From: Psychrobacter immobilis
GTDB taxonomy: Bacteria > Pseudomonadota > Gammaproteobacteria > Pseudomonadales > Moraxellaceae
NCBI RefSeq assembly: GCF_904846225.1
Contig: NZ_CAJGZJ010000009.1
Location: 1-64,000 of the forward strand
DNA length: 64,000 bases
Reading direction: 5' to 3'
Shown here: piece by piece, positions 23,201 to 34,077 of the stretch
Position numbering within the stretch: the first letter of the stretch is position 1
Layout of the letters: each line of letters begins with the position of its first letter
Notes under the pieces: generated by a model
Told to the model about the DNA's origin: nothing
Database searches by the model: none
Seen by the model: the letters and a program-made list of their open reading frames with translations, nothing else
Translations under genes and position numbers: made by a program

Positions 23201-23573
23201 AACCCTCACTAGACAAAGGTTTTAGCTGTTCATAAAAATCATGCTGACATTGGCCTAATATTTGGCTCCATGACAGCCATGACAAATCAAAACAATCCTT
23301 AGAGCTTGGCAAAAATGAAAAGATGCGCTCATCGGACCAAAGCGCTTGTCGGTAATATTTATTGAAAGACTTTATGAATCCGATACTTCCAGGATAAATC
23401 CTTTTCAATGACTCCCATTCGGTCTGTAAATCGGCGAGTAGCTGTATCTCACGTGTCCTTGCCATGTCACTGTCTTTGAGTATAGATGGGTAAGGCACGT
23501 AGCGCTTTTTTCTACCATCAAACTTTGCTAAGTCATCAATAATTTTTGGCAGCTGTGTTTCATTTATTAGCAT
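20226..23573 (-). CDS. Very large tyrosine recombinase (third gene of recombinase trio; GmtZ-like candidate)
   Basis: Site-specific integrase, about 1115 residues from the ATG at 23573, which has AGAGG 7 nt upstream. Tyrosine recombinase catalytic features lie in the middle: R in RTGMRKKELLGLKYSDI, H-x2-R in FHGFRHTAVSNL, then GHLSPERSFEYYNH with the candidate nucleophile Tyr. About 600 residues precede the domain. Roughly 280 follow it, including an HTH-like part (PLNKAAQLANISMHDAKIL). The start overlaps the previous gene by 14 bp. The architecture (small protein, ~830-residue recombinase, ~1100-residue integrase) recalls the Gamma-Mobile-Trio, but that name is my inference. Confidence 0.75.
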   Translation of the reverse strand: MLINETQLPKIIDDLAKFDGRKKRYVPYPSILKDSDMARTREIQLLADLQTEWESLKRIYPGSIGFIKSFNKYYRQALWSDERIFSFLPSSKDCFDLSWLSWSQILGQCQHDFYEQLKPLSSEGFYEFQPIIEDKIAKAYESSRTLKHVWQVVVKFVDYQNEHYMLAEHHYPKIIAPQPTKINPLIINTAWIKNGKALVKIIRAVEHQWNQTAEYSQEQIIGWIIFSGIVYGGINEIQMLQGWLTSLLAKEYQPFIKERIVVSPRFVQKRFGNEREEESDKLYNTKQIIVDMVSQCWLMRYHKNSSQAEIKPIIAKLSEDKIKQYLTVALSDVIKPLGIKPLPFSRFLYYASYYWEELKGADIDHASVGVLRGMHNTVGLSTQDFDQFLNRKYQYKEKPYDLEHILTLSISKNSINQNETSSSSSTKKIEVRKSDLIMNLTKDFKINEKQKKKKLDQTTYTLIERVQKRYEQYDDLSEKILLDWVLSLLNRKESKSLSNESILKYIRTIGYEWLYFTTAQPLDIWSEEEFEDLYEDILEYKAVVRNNTDIGYSANLLKSMHNFAKSKYNLPSVNFQHSKNGRRVRAELVSPQAYQAIITQILGSVDILEREMFALLFILVYRTGMRKKELLGLKYSDIEGLKAATPSVVIRPNSYRPTKTQSSIRRIALFALLKPDELNFFINFVQSNIGSHSNKFIFTLSSDQRPIDDHVPLQLLKRVLKDMSVDDNVAEHTFHGFRHTAVSNLSLALLGHPDLVEALTDYDENDILRIKKGLLGEHIDAQDRWYALSGIMGHLSPERSFEYYNHLATLMATYALSKADITLPDRTLYNITSFTKKKLKENNAAVSNNSVNIPSIRTLLFKNIIEGKRKSPKFTIENRDEQCPLSANSLGNDELFGRYGLNRIQLLLQTYDDKIPLNKAAQLANISMHDAKILIKRASEVADIATKRDKSRFVKLSDSKNSVLSPLNIQYQSDLRLLSLLLSNAYRLREESRIDWALFIEICSEKISTSKAYISFGKGDKKELQRFIDIVDKLLPLKHWLMSSNEALLMKTMPSTNYQNIKRQSNNSIEAIHIGIASRDPRDQTNKWQYSPLLRFFVHMMLITDENILIIDSKL

Positions 23574-26052
23574 GGTCAACCTCTGCAGTGTTTGTGCCAA
23601 CATGATTTGAATTAGGGTAGTTGTTGATTGTGATATCCGATAACCCAAGCTGTGCTGCGATCTGTTCAAACACGGACGCTACACGCTTAATATCTGCTTT
23701 ACTACTTGATGAGAAACGCCCCAATACTTCTTGACGAGCTTTTTCATGACCGATAACCGTGTTAATCAGTGATAAAGAAACACCAAGCTTTTCAAGCTGA
23801 GTACGAACAAAATGGCGTGTCCAATAAGGATTAGCATCAATGATGTGTTTGGTCGTCTGATAAGCATCACCACGCTTAATATCCTTGAGAACAGTGGCAT
23901 TAAAAGTAGGAGCACGTTCAGACAATAGTTTCAATAAAGCCTCATCGTTACCTAAGCGAATATCGTCAATGGTGGCGCTGATTACATGATTTGACTGATG
24001 CTTAGCCTGATAGTCAATCAAATACGCTCTATAGTCTATTAAGTGTTTTACAAGAGTAGAGCATAGCGGTATCAAACGATCACTTTTGACCTTCTTAACA
24101 GGCTTGTCATTGATGAGCAGCCAACCCATATCAAGATCGATATCGTACATCTTGCCAAGACCGTTATTTGGTCGCACGCCGGTTAAAAGGCAAAAGATAA
24201 ACCATACAAAAATACCGGTTCTATTAAAGTGATCCTCATCATTTAAACTCTGATCGGTCCAGCACCTCATCTCATTTATGATGTCGCAAACCGTTTCAAT
24301 CTTTAGCGCAAACCCTGACCCCACTGTATATTTGCGCCAAAGAGATATATAAGATAAATCAAAACTACTAGTGCTGCTAAACACGCTTAGCGCCGACTTA
24401 TAGTTAGTAATAAGCGCTTCGCTGGTGTGGCTACTATAGTACATCGCTGGAGCATGGGGCGCTGGCGTGCGGCAAATGATATCAGCAATATGCTGATGAC
24501 AATCAGGTGTATAACGAGAGAGCACGATATGTAGTGCGGTCTCTATACGATTGACGGACAGGTACGGCAATCCAAGGCTGCTACGCAAGTTGGCAAGATA
24601 CGCCGTAAAATCTTCTTTTACAGGCAACTGACAGGCAAGCAAATTATCTATCAGCCACGACGGTAGTGGAACTTTGATGGTATCGGAATGATTTTCATAA
24701 TCCTTTTCGGCCAGTGTTTGGCTTGTGGACCTTTCGGTAATACCTAAACTGTGTTTAATGTAATACTTTTTACCTTCAAGGTTAAAAATACCAGGATGAC
24801 CTATATAGCCGGGTGTTAGTAAGGACTTAACTGGCAGTCCGGTAATCATAGATAACAGTAAAATACCCGCACAGGTTTTATGAGTCTCTGATTCTAGTAA
24901 GGTACTTGCGTCTTGGTTGAGCGCAGCAAATAACGCTTGGTAGCCGACAAGGGAGAGTAAGCGCGTATTAGAGTTGAGCGCGAGATTACGCTGAGACATG
25001 TAGTTTTGCTGTAGCGATAAGTCGATAGTTTGCAGCGGTATGGAGTTTTTGATTAACGGGTTTGGATATTCGCCGTAGCTGATATAGGGCGCCTCATAGT
25101 GGTCAATACACTCTTCAAAGCTCGTCGTTAACCCTTCATAGCTTTCAGTATTAGCTTCTAAAAATGCGAGATCTATGGCGATAGCGCTGTGTTCTATATC
25201 ATCACGTGTGTTACCCCATGCATCATTGCTGGGCGTGGTATTCCAGTTGTGACTCGTTGCAGTAGAGTCTAAGGGTATTGTCGATGTATTGTCTGCTAAG
25301 TTGATAGCTTTAATTTTAATGTTCTTAGGTGGCTTCTTACGCTTGGGTTTAGGCTTGCGTAATGCATGCGCATTTTGATAGGCGGTCGTTATTTTCTCTA
25401 TTTGACTGAGTTTTGCTTTTGCGTCAGTTTTATTCTTTGCTACTTTCATTTCCTCGGTATGAGTAGTTTGCTTATTGTTTATCGTCGCAAGCGCGCTTTT
25501 TTGCTGCTCTAACAGGCTGTTAAATACCGATAATATACGTTCTATGCTCATATCAATGTGCTTGATATCAGGTAGAGCCGGCCATAGCCACACACGCCTA
25601 GGAGCCGCTGAAAACTGCGCCATCTTAAATTGCATGAGTATGTTATTGGTATCAGTTTTTCTATCGGGCACCATAAGCAGCGCGGCAGTGTGCAGCGCTA
25701 TAGCCATCCAAATCAGCCGCGATGAGTGATTGAGTCGCTGACGACTGACAATATCTTGCATTAGGATAAGCAGCTGCATCATCAGTGGTTTTTGTGCCAA
25801 ATCCGTCCTATTGATCTGCATATACTGATTGGCAACTGGTCTCTGTTGTAGTAGTGGCGCTATCGTCTCTATTAAATATTTAGTAGAGTTTTCAGGACGT
25901 TTATAACTGTCATGTACTGCGATAACGATGGTAGAGATAGCCTCTACAACAGATTCGGGGTAAACAAACGCTTTATCACTCTTTAAATGATTAATAGTCT
26001 TTGCAGACAGCCATTCCTCCTGACTGGGAGAGGTGTCATTATTTTGAGTCAT
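23560..26052 (-). CDS. Large degenerate tyrosine recombinase-like protein (second gene of trio; GmtY-like candidate)
   Basis: 830 residues. The C-terminal ~200 have the tyrosine recombinase layout. There is an Arg in LLTGVRPNNGLGKM, an H-x2-R in WTRHFVRTQLEKLG, and a GHEKARQEVLGRFSS segment. At the position where the nucleophilic Tyr is expected, F and S residues appear, so it may be a structural partner rather than an active strand-exchange enzyme. A basic Lys/Pro-rich stretch (RKPKPKRKKPPKNIK) lies near residue 240. It overlaps the upstream small gene by 4 bp (ATGA). Confidence 0.7.
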   Translation of the reverse strand: MTQNNDTSPSQEEWLSAKTINHLKSDKAFVYPESVVEAISTIVIAVHDSYKRPENSTKYLIETIAPLLQQRPVANQYMQINRTDLAQKPLMMQLLILMQDIVSRQRLNHSSRLIWMAIALHTAALLMVPDRKTDTNNILMQFKMAQFSAAPRRVWLWPALPDIKHIDMSIERILSVFNSLLEQQKSALATINNKQTTHTEEMKVAKNKTDAKAKLSQIEKITTAYQNAHALRKPKPKRKKPPKNIKIKAINLADNTSTIPLDSTATSHNWNTTPSNDAWGNTRDDIEHSAIAIDLAFLEANTESYEGLTTSFEECIDHYEAPYISYGEYPNPLIKNSIPLQTIDLSLQQNYMSQRNLALNSNTRLLSLVGYQALFAALNQDASTLLESETHKTCAGILLLSMITGLPVKSLLTPGYIGHPGIFNLEGKKYYIKHSLGITERSTSQTLAEKDYENHSDTIKVPLPSWLIDNLLACQLPVKEDFTAYLANLRSSLGLPYLSVNRIETALHIVLSRYTPDCHQHIADIICRTPAPHAPAMYYSSHTSEALITNYKSALSVFSSTSSFDLSYISLWRKYTVGSGFALKIETVCDIINEMRCWTDQSLNDEDHFNRTGIFVWFIFCLLTGVRPNNGLGKMYDIDLDMGWLLINDKPVKKVKSDRLIPLCSTLVKHLIDYRAYLIDYQAKHQSNHVISATIDDIRLGNDEALLKLLSERAPTFNATVLKDIKRGDAYQTTKHIIDANPYWTRHFVRTQLEKLGVSLSLINTVIGHEKARQEVLGRFSSSSKADIKRVASVFEQIAAQLGLSDITINNYPNSNHVGTNTAEVDHANK

Positions 26053-26549
26053 AGCGATACTCCAGAGCGACGCGCATGATAGGTCTGCTCAGTGATATTT
26101 ATAAGCTCACAAAATTTGGTGACAGCAAAAATGTTTTTGCCAAATAACTGCTGATTCTTCTGTTTATCTAAGATGTTATTCAAATTTCTGTAAATGAGTT
26201 TGATATCTAGCTTTTTGTTATGCTGAGTGATGAGCTCAATGAGCTCATAAAAACAGAGCTCAAATTCAAAATCATCCTTTGAGATGTATTGCACAGATAC
26301 CTCTTGTCTGAGTACATTAAAATCGATATTAGGGCTTTTCACTAGATGAAAAAGCTCAAAATTATTGACTAAAAACCATTGTTTATCCTCTTTGATAAAC
26401 AATGTGGTTTTAGTCCAAGCAGCGCTTTGTTCAAGCTTAAAGGCTTCATTAATGAACGGTCTGATATGATATGTATAAATATTAAATAGATCGATAATAT
26501 CTGGAAATATAAGCACAGAGGTTATCTGTAGTTTCGCTATCGTTACCAT
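26049..26549 (-). CDS. Small unknown protein, first gene of recombinase trio (GmtX-like candidate)
   Basis: 166 residues with no signal peptide and no family I recognise. The N-terminal half is mixed alpha/beta; the C-terminus (IFAVTKFCELINITEQTYHARRSG) looks like a helix-turn-helix. The stop overlaps the next gene's start (ATGA), so it is co-translated with the two large recombinases and probably helps their DNA binding or regulation. The naming rests on gene order only. Confidence 0.6.
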   Translation of the reverse strand: MVTIAKLQITSVLIFPDIIDLFNIYTYHIRPFINEAFKLEQSAAWTKTTLFIKEDKQWFLVNNFELFHLVKSPNIDFNVLRQEVSVQYISKDDFEFELCFYELIELITQHNKKLDIKLIYRNLNNILDKQKNQQLFGKNIFAVTKFCELINITEQTYHARRSGVSL

Positions 26550-29707: not shown

Positions 29708-31047
29708 TTTTTAAGCATCCTATAGGTGATGAAACCCGTAAATGGCAGTCTCTTACTCAGCAGCTATAGCTTTTTAAGTCACCTGAGCGGTGAGATCCAT
29801 TTTTCCGAATTGCGTTTGGAATTATAACTTCTGAAAATCCTATTTAAAGGATTTTCCTTGCACAATTAAAATTGCAGTACAATTTTTTAACGCTGCTCAT
29901 AAGTCACCTGAGCGGTGATGAAGTCTTCTTCATCTAAGCAAGTGTTATCAATATCTTTCTAAGTCACCTGAGCGGTGATGAAGGATTGGCAATAAGAAGT
30001 TAGCTGACCGTTGGTTTTCTAAGTCACCTGAGCGGTGATGAAGACCAGTTTTGGCAGTTCGCCGTTGAGCACCCCTTTCTAAGTCACCTGAGCGGTGATG
30101 AAGTGGTAGGCCGAGCATGTCGCTTGGCAGACCGTTTTCTAAGTCACCTGAGCGGTGATGAAGGCCATCACGATTGGGTCTTGCCCGTTGCCAATTTTCT
30201 AAGTCACCTGAGCGGTGATGAAGTTGGTGGCACCAATGGGCATTAATACCAAGATTTTCTAAGTCACCTGAGCGGTGATGAAGGTAAGCTATCTAAGTTG
30301 CTAAAATTATTCCATTTTCTAAGTCACCTGAGCGGTGATGAAGAAACTGAGGTTGATTTACAGATTGATTATTTTTTTCTAAGTCACCTGAGCGGTGATG
30401 AAGGCGCATGGCTTTGTTGATTACAAGCTAGGTGTTTTCTAAGTCACCTGAGCGGTGATGAAGTGGCTGGCAACCGAGTCGGCAAGACGATTGCTTTTCT
30501 AAGTCACCTGAGCGGTGATGAAGACTACGTCATAAACCGTCATGGATTTATTCAATTTCTAAGTCACCTGAGCGGTGATGAAGCCGAAGCTCAGCAGGTA
30601 CTTGGTTCAGGCGAATTTCTAAGTCACCTGAGCGGTGATGAAGGCCATTATCTTTTCTTGCTCGCGGATTTGATCTTTCTAAGTCACCTGAGCGGTGATG
30701 AAGACTCAATTCCACTTGCATCTTTGTAGTGTGGTTTTCTAAGTCACCTGAGCGGTGATGAAGATTTTAGGAGAAAAGGCGATGAGTGATATTGATTTCT
30801 AAGTCACCTGAGCGGTGATGAAGTCACTGCATACTTGGTCATACACTTGCTGAAATTTCTAAGTCACCTGAGCGGTGATGAAGAGCTTGAGCAAGCAAAA
30901 CATGCCATATAATCATTTCTAAGTCACCTGAGCGGTGATGAAGCATATCAGGGCGTGTGTCGGCTGTCTCCGCAGTTTCTAAGTCACCTGAGCGGTGATG
31001 AAGATCGCAACATCATACTTAAAGCGCGTCAGCTTTTTCTAAGTCAC
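29708..31047 (-). CRISPR. Type I-F-like CRISPR array, orphan, truncated at its leader end
   Basis: Eighteen perfect 28-bp repeats start every 60 bp from 29956 to 30976. A copy at 29896 has a decayed 5' end. Decayed copies start at 29771 and, more weakly, about 29708. A 12-nt stub of a repeat lies at 31036-31047. Nineteen 32-nt spacers lie between 29924 and 31035. On the minus strand the repeat begins CTTCATCACCGCTC and ends GACTTAGAAA, the type I-F form, so transcription runs from high to low coordinates. The decayed low-coordinate end is the trailer and the leader should be above 31047. Instead, cas1 sequence begins there. No other cas gene is in the window. One spacer (30464-30495) encodes a terminase-like Walker A motif. 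Confidence 0.97.
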
Positions 31048-31167
31048 TTTTTGCATTACCCTACAATGAGAAAGGTAGTAAATATTGGCACGTTTCGAGT
31101 GCAAGATGGTTTTTAGATCCGATGAGGCAAAGCTATTATCTGTATAGGGGTTAGTCGATTTAGCCAT
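31039..31167 (-). pseudogene. cas1: Truncated type I-F cas1 fused into a CRISPR repeat
   Basis: The frame has 42 codons from ATG 31167. Residues 17-38 (SDLKTILHSKRANIYYL then SHCRV) match the start of type I-F Cas1; P. aeruginosa Cas1 has ELKTILHSKRANLYYLQHCRV. After MQK the reading runs into the repeat stub and stops at TAG within it. The remaining ~280 residues of Cas1 are absent, as are cas2-3 and csy1-4. The fragment is in the order and orientation expected for a I-F locus (cas1 first, array last), so it marks the left edge of a deletion. Confidence 0.88.
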
Positions 31168-31169
31168 AG

Positions 31170-31220
31170 TAATTCCAGTAAAGTAAGACCTTAAGACATG
31201 ATTTTACTTTACTGGAATTA
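31170..31220. repeat. 17-bp perfect inverted repeat just upstream of truncated cas1
   Basis: The arms 31170-31186 and 31204-31220 are exact reverse complements separated by 17 nt. The near arm starts 2 bp before the cas1 ATG. Likely roles are an operator for cas promoter control or an mRNA leader hairpin hiding the cas1 start. It could also be a terminator remnant, but there is no T-run. Confidence 0.8.
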
Positions 31221-31286
31221 TGTTCGCAAAACAATGGATAGTATTTACTCTGCGACAACAGATGTCGTTAAGGATTTGGAGATAAT

Positions 31287-31315
31287 AAAAAACCAGACAA
31301 CCTAAATTATCTGGT
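31287..31315 (-). terminator. Intrinsic terminator of the integrase operon
   Basis: On the minus strand a 9-bp stem (one G-T pair) with a 6-nt loop is followed by TTTTTT. It sits about 20 bp past the stop of the last small gene. It insulates the cas1 remnant from the integrase operon. Confidence 0.82.
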
Positions 31316-31335: not shown

Positions 31336-31656
31336 CTATCTATCTACAATAAGCTGTCCACCAGAAAAGTTGATACATCCCTCACAGAACCAAGAGTTTA
31401 AATGTCTTGCATAGGGTATATCTGCTGGTACATCCAGCTGGTATGGACGACCACAGTACTCACAGTGTATGTCATCTAAATAAACCTGACACCTCGCAAG
31501 CGTAGCAAACAATTCATCAAATTCCATGTTGTGGTCGTAACAAAGTATTTTTAAATGAGCTATATAATCACTAGGTGATACATATGACCAATACTCATGG
31601 CACAAACGTTTTGCTGTATCCTCCAGATCTAAATCAAAAACAAAGTTTACACTCAT
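31336..31656 (-). CDS. Small hypothetical protein with zinc-ribbon-like cysteines
   Basis: 106 residues from the ATG at 31656, which has AAGGAG upstream; an earlier in-frame ATG lacks one. The N-terminus is acidic (FVFDLDLEDTAKRLCHEYW). The C-terminal part has two Cys pairs, CEYCGRP and CEGCINF, about 26 residues apart, suggesting a zinc-binding ribbon. The family is not recognised. It is the last gene of the integrase operon. Confidence 0.55.
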   Translation of the reverse strand: MSVNFVFDLDLEDTAKRLCHEYWSYVSPSDYIAHLKILCYDHNMEFDELFATLARCQVYLDDIHCEYCGRPYQLDVPADIPYARHLNSWFCEGCINFSGGQLIVDR

Positions 31657-31666
31657 AATATTCTCC

Positions 31667-31957
31667 TTAGTAATCATAGCCAGTTTGTGGCAGTAGTCCA
31701 TAAAGCTCGCTCTCTAGTTGATGGCATATCTCATCAACAAGATAGCCACTATTGGCATCTAAGCGCTTCTGAACCCATACCCGCATTGCCATATGATTAT
31801 CGAAGCAACTATCAACATTTAAGAACCTAGCCAAACCATTACCTGCTTGGATAGGAAACTCACAAATTATACTATTGGCAATGACATTGGCATCTTCACT
31901 AACGTAACCACTAGGTTTAAACGTCGCATGTAGGTTATCGTAATCAATCATTTTCAT
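31667..31957 (-). CDS. Small hypothetical protein following the integrase
   Basis: 96 residues, no recognised domain. Its start overlaps the integrase stop by 4 bp (ATGA), with GGAGACG upstream, so it is translated with the integrase. The next small gene starts 10 bp after its stop. Genes in this position of integrative elements are often directionality or cargo factors; that is inference. Confidence 0.55.
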   Translation of the reverse strand: MKMIDYDNLHATFKPSGYVSEDANVIANSIICEFPIQAGNGLARFLNVDSCFDNHMAMRVWVQKRLDANSGYLVDEICHQLESELYGLLPQTGYDY

Positions 31958-33156
31958 TGTGACGTCTCCTTGTCAGTAGATATCTGAGAAATCTGACTGC
32001 GGTTGACCAATGCTTCAAATGCACTACCATCCTGCCTAGTCATATTCGGTACGTAGCGACTATAAGTATTAAACAGCATCTTAGTCGTAGAGTGTCCCAT
32101 TTGGCTGGCTATCCACTCAGGACTTTCGCCAGCAGCTAACCATAACGTCGCTGCGGTATGACGGCTCTGATAGGCATTACGCTTTTTGAGACCCAAAATC
32201 TTAAGAGTAGGGTGCCAAACACGCTTATTTACGTTGTTATAATCAAGTGGTTCACCTGTATGCGCGCAAAACACATAGTCAGATCGCTTATAAGTAATGG
32301 TCTGTTGTTCCTTCAGAGCATCATAGACCCAAGGTGACATTTGAATCGCACGATAAGACTCCTGAGTCTTAGGAGGAACAATTTTGCCTTTAACATAAGC
32401 TTGTTTGATCACAATCTCACGTCGATTAAAGTCAATGTTCTCCCACGTCAGCCCATCAATCTCACTCGTACGCATACCAGTAAAAAAACGTACCAAATAA
32501 TAATTGCGATAGTCCGCTCTCACACCATTAATAAACGTCCAAACCTCATTCAGTGTGAATGGTTGAATATCCGTTTTAGGCTGTTTGAGCGCATTGATAT
32601 CGTAATAAGGGTTATCAAACTTGTAGCGTTTAGCGCCTTCTTTTAGTATCATACCCAAAGGTACCATTATCGAATTGATGCGTGCCGCTGACAGATGTTT
32701 GTTAGCTTTTCCGTACGTTACTTTGGCGAGCGATGAACGGAAGGCTAATACATCTGTCTTTTTTATGAGATGAATGGGTCTAGTCCCAAAACTAGGTAGT
32801 AAATACATATCGATAATCTCCTTTATTTTGCGTATATAAGTCTCACGCCATTCAATTTCTTTTTCAGAAAACCAGAGCAGGGCAAATTGTTTAAATGAAG
32901 GGGTGTCACTTTGAATGCATTCCTTACGATCACTTAACGCCATCATCTCGTCGCATTTATCACTTTTTGGAAAATATTTAGCATAACTAAAAATACCCAA
33001 TGTAATTTCCGCTTCCATTTTCTCAATTATCTTCTCAAGCTTCCTACGATTGGCTGGCGTGTCCGTCAGGTTTGTCGTCTCCCGACAGCGTTTGTTCATA
33101 TAGCGAAAGTCGACAAATAGCATATTGCTACTTTTGCGTGTTCTAATACTAGCCAT
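31954..33156 (-). CDS. Phage-type tyrosine integrase
   Basis: 400 residues. An N-terminal arm-binding region (ASIRTRKSSNMLFVDFRYMNKRCRE, DUF3596-like) precedes a SAM-like core-binding domain. The catalytic domain has R in FFTGMRTSEIDGLTW, H-x-x-R in YQSRHTAATL, H in MGHSTTKM and a Tyr in FNTYSRYVPN. The full R-K-H-R-H-Y set is plausible. It lies between the HTH gene and two small genes, all minus, in a compact integrative module about 0.8 kb from tRNA-Val. Confidence 0.92.
   Translation of the reverse strand: MASIRTRKSSNMLFVDFRYMNKRCRETTNLTDTPANRRKLEKIIEKMEAEITLGIFSYAKYFPKSDKCDEMMALSDRKECIQSDTPSFKQFALLWFSEKEIEWRETYIRKIKEIIDMYLLPSFGTRPIHLIKKTDVLAFRSSLAKVTYGKANKHLSAARINSIMVPLGMILKEGAKRYKFDNPYYDINALKQPKTDIQPFTLNEVWTFINGVRADYRNYYLVRFFTGMRTSEIDGLTWENIDFNRREIVIKQAYVKGKIVPPKTQESYRAIQMSPWVYDALKEQQTITYKRSDYVFCAHTGEPLDYNNVNKRVWHPTLKILGLKKRNAYQSRHTAATLWLAAGESPEWIASQMGHSTTKMLFNTYSRYVPNMTRQDGSAFEALVNRSQISQISTDKETSQ

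Positions 33157-34000: not shown

Positions 34001-34077
<77 letters not shown>

Follow-up and report, generated by a model that had tools for sequence, protein, structure and literature searches.

Orphan type I-F CRISPR arrays joined to a cas1 fragment at a recurrent base in Psychrobacter and a second genus

The window, a stretch of 64,000 nt from Psychrobacter immobilis (NZ_CAJGZJ010000009.1, positions 1 to 64,000), carries on its minus strand a fragment of a type I-F cas1 gene that runs directly into a CRISPR repeat. The fragment cas1′ (31048..31167) consists of the first 40 codons (MAKSTNPY...CRVMQK). It is fused on the same strand to the partial repeat GTGACTTAGAAA (31036..31047; repeat positions 17–28), which on the plus strand reads TTTCTAAGTCAC and makes up the final 12 nt of the full repeat CTTCATCACCGCTCAGGTGACTTAGAAA. 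At the junction, cas1′ and repeat overlap by 1 nt, a G common to the cas1 AAAAAG and the repeat. The fused frame ends inside the partial repeat at a TAG stop (31039–31041). The encoded 42-residue peptide (31042–31167, minus strand) had been taken for the N-terminus of a type I-F Cas1 in a preliminary description, and this was borne out: it matches the NCBIfam model TIGR03637 (Cas1f; E 3.4e-6, profile positions 1–20) and, among solved Cas1f chains, best PDB 5fcl_A (3.8e-11, query residues 9–38). Base-level reading likewise agrees with the earlier account of about 40 cas1 codons that run into the 3′ 12 nt of a repeat and stop there. The cas1 match is significant by itself and the junction is present at 11 loci, far beyond chance.

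The array (29896..31035, minus strand) has 19 spacers, 18 perfect 28-nt repeats from 30976 down to 29956 and one degenerate terminal repeat at 29896–29923. Its leader side is the cas1′ side. A decayed repeat with six mismatches (29771..29798, minus strand) lies about 100 nt from the array end. The segment in between has TGAG...CTCA ends, which overlap both flanking repeat copies. Segments with such ends (29799–29899 in the window; 11111–11255 in L056) break the distal array end in several genomes. They follow the CTTA of a repeat, with a long repeat duplication, and are possibly an insertion element targeting CRISPR repeats.

The locus resides among genes of a putative island. The cas1 upstream region (31168..31290, minus strand), with an inverted repeat (31159–31186 / 31204–31231), is partly common to intact and truncated loci of relatives. 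Two small ORFs of 121 aa (31336..31701) and 96 aa (31667..31957), both on the minus strand and without a Pfam match, accompany cas1 in several loci, both intact and truncated. They are followed by a tyrosine integrase of 400 aa (31954..33156, minus strand; PF00589, PF12167), which is 87–92% identical in the fetched loci of G051, G066, G017, G049 and G101. A tRNA-Val (GAC) at 34001..34077 (minus strand) is the presumed attachment site of the island. This tRNA adjoins I-F loci in two genera (L223, L128, L129, L054 and the window). Genome G143, from another genus of the family, seems to contain two islands with one complete and one partial tRNA copy as ends. On the array side, a 166-aa ORF and an 830-aa tyrosine-recombinase-like protein (23560..26549, minus strand) occupy the same place in G051 and are conserved beside several I-F loci. 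The 830-aa protein has a weak phage-integrase domain (PF00589, E 9e-4, below Pfam's cut-off).

An intact locus in the relative G051 indicates what stood there before. Between flanks that are collinear with the window on both sides at 79–82% identity, G051 keeps cas1 and array in one locus, in the order integrase, small ORFs, cas1, cas2-3, csy1-4, leader and an array of 82 repeats. Order and orientation of cas1′ and array in the window agree with this arrangement, as originally described. The leader, which ends with TATAATTTCT in G051 and with TATAATTCCT in most relatives, is present in intact loci; in the window, cas1′ is in its place. Measured against the complete locus that G051 has at this position, the window lacks at least 8,891 nt. 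Searches of the window's genome (G000) for the I-F Cas1 body, Cas3, Csy3 and Csy4 gave no match, and the Cas1f profile match there was confined to positions 1–20. The array in the window is therefore an orphan I-F array, its genome having no cognate cas genes among these four. The loss took the cas1 body, cas2-3, csy1-4, the leader and a portion of one repeat. Plausibly, the newest spacers were lost as well. The array is probably inert now, because neither Cas6f nor Csy3 was found.

The junction is not private to the window. cas1 ending in ...ATGCAAAAA and continuing at repeat position 17 was present at 11 loci of nine genomes in two genera. Nine of these loci belong to 8 of 105 Psychrobacter genomes (G000, G066, G005, G049, G101 with two loci, G027, G092 and G046), detected with a Cas1f model and a search with the 302-nt junction region and read base by base. 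Six of the nine junctions agree base for base. That of G027 lacks one A, and two others are decayed, the second locus of G101 (C2) and G046. No array of two intact repeats follows either decayed copy. First spacers are different in every junction locus that keeps one. A search of 299 family genomes added two junction loci, both in G143. Here, the same cas1 base is joined to position 17 of a different repeat, for example ATTCACCGCCACACAGGCGGCTTAGAAA; the G143 repeat ends with GCGGCTTAGAAA.

Nine genomes of the genus had an array without a complete cas1, in a count whose array pattern misses the junction carriers G027 and G046: five arrays start at the junction, three at an IS-like cap, and G004 has a short array without cas1. 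The capped arrays L185, L197 and L201 (G019, G067 and G085) have the partial repeat CGCATAGGTGACTTAGAAA in common and different spacers; the array of G067 has repeats of another type. We take the cap to be a transposase-like N-terminal ORF. Second arrays were counted in G029, G031, G059, G082 and G096. In G096 (L104) and G100 (L094), cas1, leader and array are intact, and there is no Csy3 match in the genome.

Only two of 80 short Cas1-like proteins, P0001 and P0004, terminate in MQK(VT). The exact junction pattern was absent from 369 class-level genomes, a weak negative because the pattern demands a repeat end within 45 nt and missed G000 itself. A contig search gave 16 matches, four of them in Psychrobacter; three of the other 12 were read and all are unrelated. 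Plasmid matches numbered 18, 15 annotated as cas1f and three without a listed gene. Of the matches read, H1 is an intact I-F system, the frame of H9 is open beyond the cas1 site, and H14 and H15 are Acinetobacter pseudo-cas1 genes without a clear join to a repeat. Acinetobacter-like genomes (g15) have cas1 remnants with other breakpoints; in G271, also Acinetobacter-like, the repeat end is joined at about codon 50 via a 3-nt overlap, as judged by eye. An origin from phages or viruses gained no support: two matches in phage records are both annotated cas1, and no truncated copy was among them. The first pattern for viral sequences gave five stretches, all read, without CRISPR repeats or cas1; a wider pattern gave 33, among which the single stretch already known from the first pattern was read.

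Comparison with sister genomes points to separate origins of the truncated loci. Three fragments match the intact cas1 of a close relative to within 1 nt of the last 64. G027 is collinear with intact G026 at 93.5% identity over 8 kb upstream, up to cas1 +62, and on the far side of the array the two align again over 2.4 kb at 96%. G092 aligns with intact G090 at 92.9% over 5.9 kb, up to cas1 +64, with short pieces of 85% (233 nt) and 89.6% (338 nt) at and past the array ends. The cas1′ of G143 is identical to intact G135 at 116 of 116 positions and 99% identical to G110; the array-side flank of its locus on C43 is 94.8% identical to intact G110 over 2,868 nt, and the other side is a contig end. 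In all three pairs, the fragment can be told from each other fragment by a base at most 18 nt from the junction, and at the nearest such base it has the letter of its sister. To import a known foreign truncated allele would therefore need a crossover within this distance. One spacer of G092 nearly matches one of G090, with a 1-nt offset and a mismatch, so that it does not show a common array and could have been acquired separately. A single event together with conversion may account for both G143 loci.

A tree of the fragments with intact cas1 (101 columns and 41 rows, without intact G011 and the second copy of G039) rejected a single clade for all 11 fragments (p-AU 9.2e-9) and for the nine Psychrobacter fragments (p-AU 9.8e-6). 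The tree has seven changes, and seven to eight over the bootstraps, which are unsettled, with only one starred branch; starred branches force at most three changes. The truncated label is somewhat clustered, as 9 of 500 shuffles were as low. T_G049 and T_G101a represent one truncated allele, with three differences in 121 columns and identity decaying upstream, so recombination or descent does spread a truncated allele.

The orphan I-F arrays thus probably arose by repeated removal of the cas genes at the same two breakpoints in Psychrobacter and in the second genus, as far as genome comparison can tell. The losses would have been independent events. We infer a specific determinant of the breakpoints, either an enzyme or a strong hot spot that acts on cas1 and a repeat.

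A single ancient truncated allele, cas1′ with its partial repeat, might instead have been spread by homologous recombination and island transfer, its spacers turned over by repeat–repeat recombination and its cas1′ overwritten by local intact alleles. This explanation keeps about a quarter of the weight, because the capped arrays of G019, G067 and G085 appear inherited with a shared cap and partial repeat while spacers changed, and because of the allele shared by T_G049 and T_G101a. Fragments other than G046 also differ mostly by synonymous changes. Against it stand the rejection of one clade and the crossovers needed so close to the junction in three pairs. The partial repeat of G143 is of its own repeat type, which is impossible from a Psychrobacter donor, and a separate origin is needed at least there.

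It is improbable that the fusion is a functional unit in which the cas1 promoter and a short Cas1 peptide serve as leader or regulator of a satellite array working in trans. Such a role would fit G066, which has a truncated and a separate complete locus, and the conservation of the peptides in most copies. G066 is, however, the only one of eight Psychrobacter carriers with a Csy3 match and the only one of all nine carriers with Cas3 and Csy4, both in the complete locus; the seven and eight others had no match. The arrays read go on with full repeats and contain no second copy of the truncated one. G046 differs from the other fragments by amino acid at 8–9 of 34 codons and, like the second G101 copy, lacks a following array of two intact repeats.

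A deletion that happened once, in this lineage alone and by ordinary illegitimate recombination, would suit the intact G051 locus at the same place and the 1-nt microhomology, yet it is very improbable, as the same junction at 11 loci of nine genomes in two genera contradicts the single deletion scar proposed at first. Of the preliminary overall reading, the removal of the I-F locus with retention of the array stands; one local event does not, because the junction recurs.

Repeated removal with fixed breakpoints asks for a mechanism, and several were examined. In direct and inverted orientation, the cas1 break region showed no consistent similarity to leaders from 10 intact loci; G066 alone scored above nearly all its shuffles, in both orientations. 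Matches of 1,686 spacers to intact loci were weak (15–21 nt), and none was positioned at the cas1 site. For 152 spacers of nine truncated loci (19 from the window), comparison with 18 cas regions gave no signal: the best match had eight mismatches, and six spacers had nine or fewer in comparison to three reversed spacers. An orphan array directed against cas genes, of the E. coli CRISPR4 kind, was rejected with no cas-matching spacer among the 152. The linked 830-aa recombinase was rejected as the agent, being absent from the fetched stretches of G026, G027, G090 and G092. No reciprocal product was recognised in 105 genomes, where one pattern match was taken as chance by its sequence; this is a weak test because a lost circle would leave no trace. 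A product of site-specific recombination gained no support either, given an overlap of 1 nt only and no recognised reciprocal junction.

One breakpoint follows the A-tract after cas1 codon 40, and the other lies between repeat positions 16 and 17, at the loop edge of a hairpin recognised by eye. A specific or hot-spot reaction could take place between the cas1 A-run and the hairpin edge. Our lead guess, an unproven one, is that the system's own Cas1–Cas2/3 joined ends or integrated DNA aberrantly, because this complex acts on repeats and the break in cas1 comes after an A-run, like the 3′ boundary of the repeat. We know of no enzyme that explains the precision of the junction with only 1 nt of microhomology. 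Tentatively, a specific reaction may join cas1 codon 40 to repeat position 17 and excise the whole I-F operon, a built-in or element-imposed off switch that keeps the array and has been used repeatedly in the family; we regard this as possible rather than likely.

Orphan I-F arrays are described for E. coli as CRISPR4.1-2 (Almendros et al. 2016, as described in PMC8616872). According to that description, the I-F cas genes are lost and a short array is kept, as in the window. E. coli differs by I-F cas genes located between two arrays, as in LF82 and as reported in PMC4489801, and by orphan spacers reported to target I-F cas genes, whereas none such were found in the truncated loci here. A further difference from the E. 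coli arrays as described is that cas1′ here stays fused inside a repeat. Deletions follow I-F self-targeting, and cas loss by targeting of a system's own cas genes has been discussed (Vercoe et al. 2013, PMC3630108). There as here, DNA loss ends a conflict between CRISPR and chromosome; here, in contrast, no anti-cas spacer was found and breakpoints are the same between species. In Legionella, I-F arrays are reported to collapse by repeat–repeat recombination (PMC7056967). Recombination at repeats trims arrays in both cases, joining repeat to repeat in Legionella and cas1 to repeat here. A literature search of titles and opening abstracts returned no description of a cas1′–repeat junction.

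The novelty is the repeated base-exact junction, not the orphan array as such. CRISPR-Cas systems are often lost, and the manner of loss is mostly invisible. Here, loss leaves the same base-exact mark in apparently separate lineages, and the mechanism of loss is therefore open to direct study; intact Psychrobacter can be screened by PCR across the known junction. If an enzyme is responsible, a precise route of excision is available to the immune system or to one of its enemies.

The intact loci revealed another feature. Between cas2-3 and csy1, 13 of 23 intact Psychrobacter I-F loci examined (L061, L101, L105 and others) contain antisense copies that resemble the repeat, between one and three per locus. 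Often two of them lie about 48 nt from each other, with a spacer of about 20 nt and a −10-like box. This arrangement looks to us like an autoregulatory guide of the CreR type. The spacer between the copies in G104 and G066 repeats sequence located just upstream.
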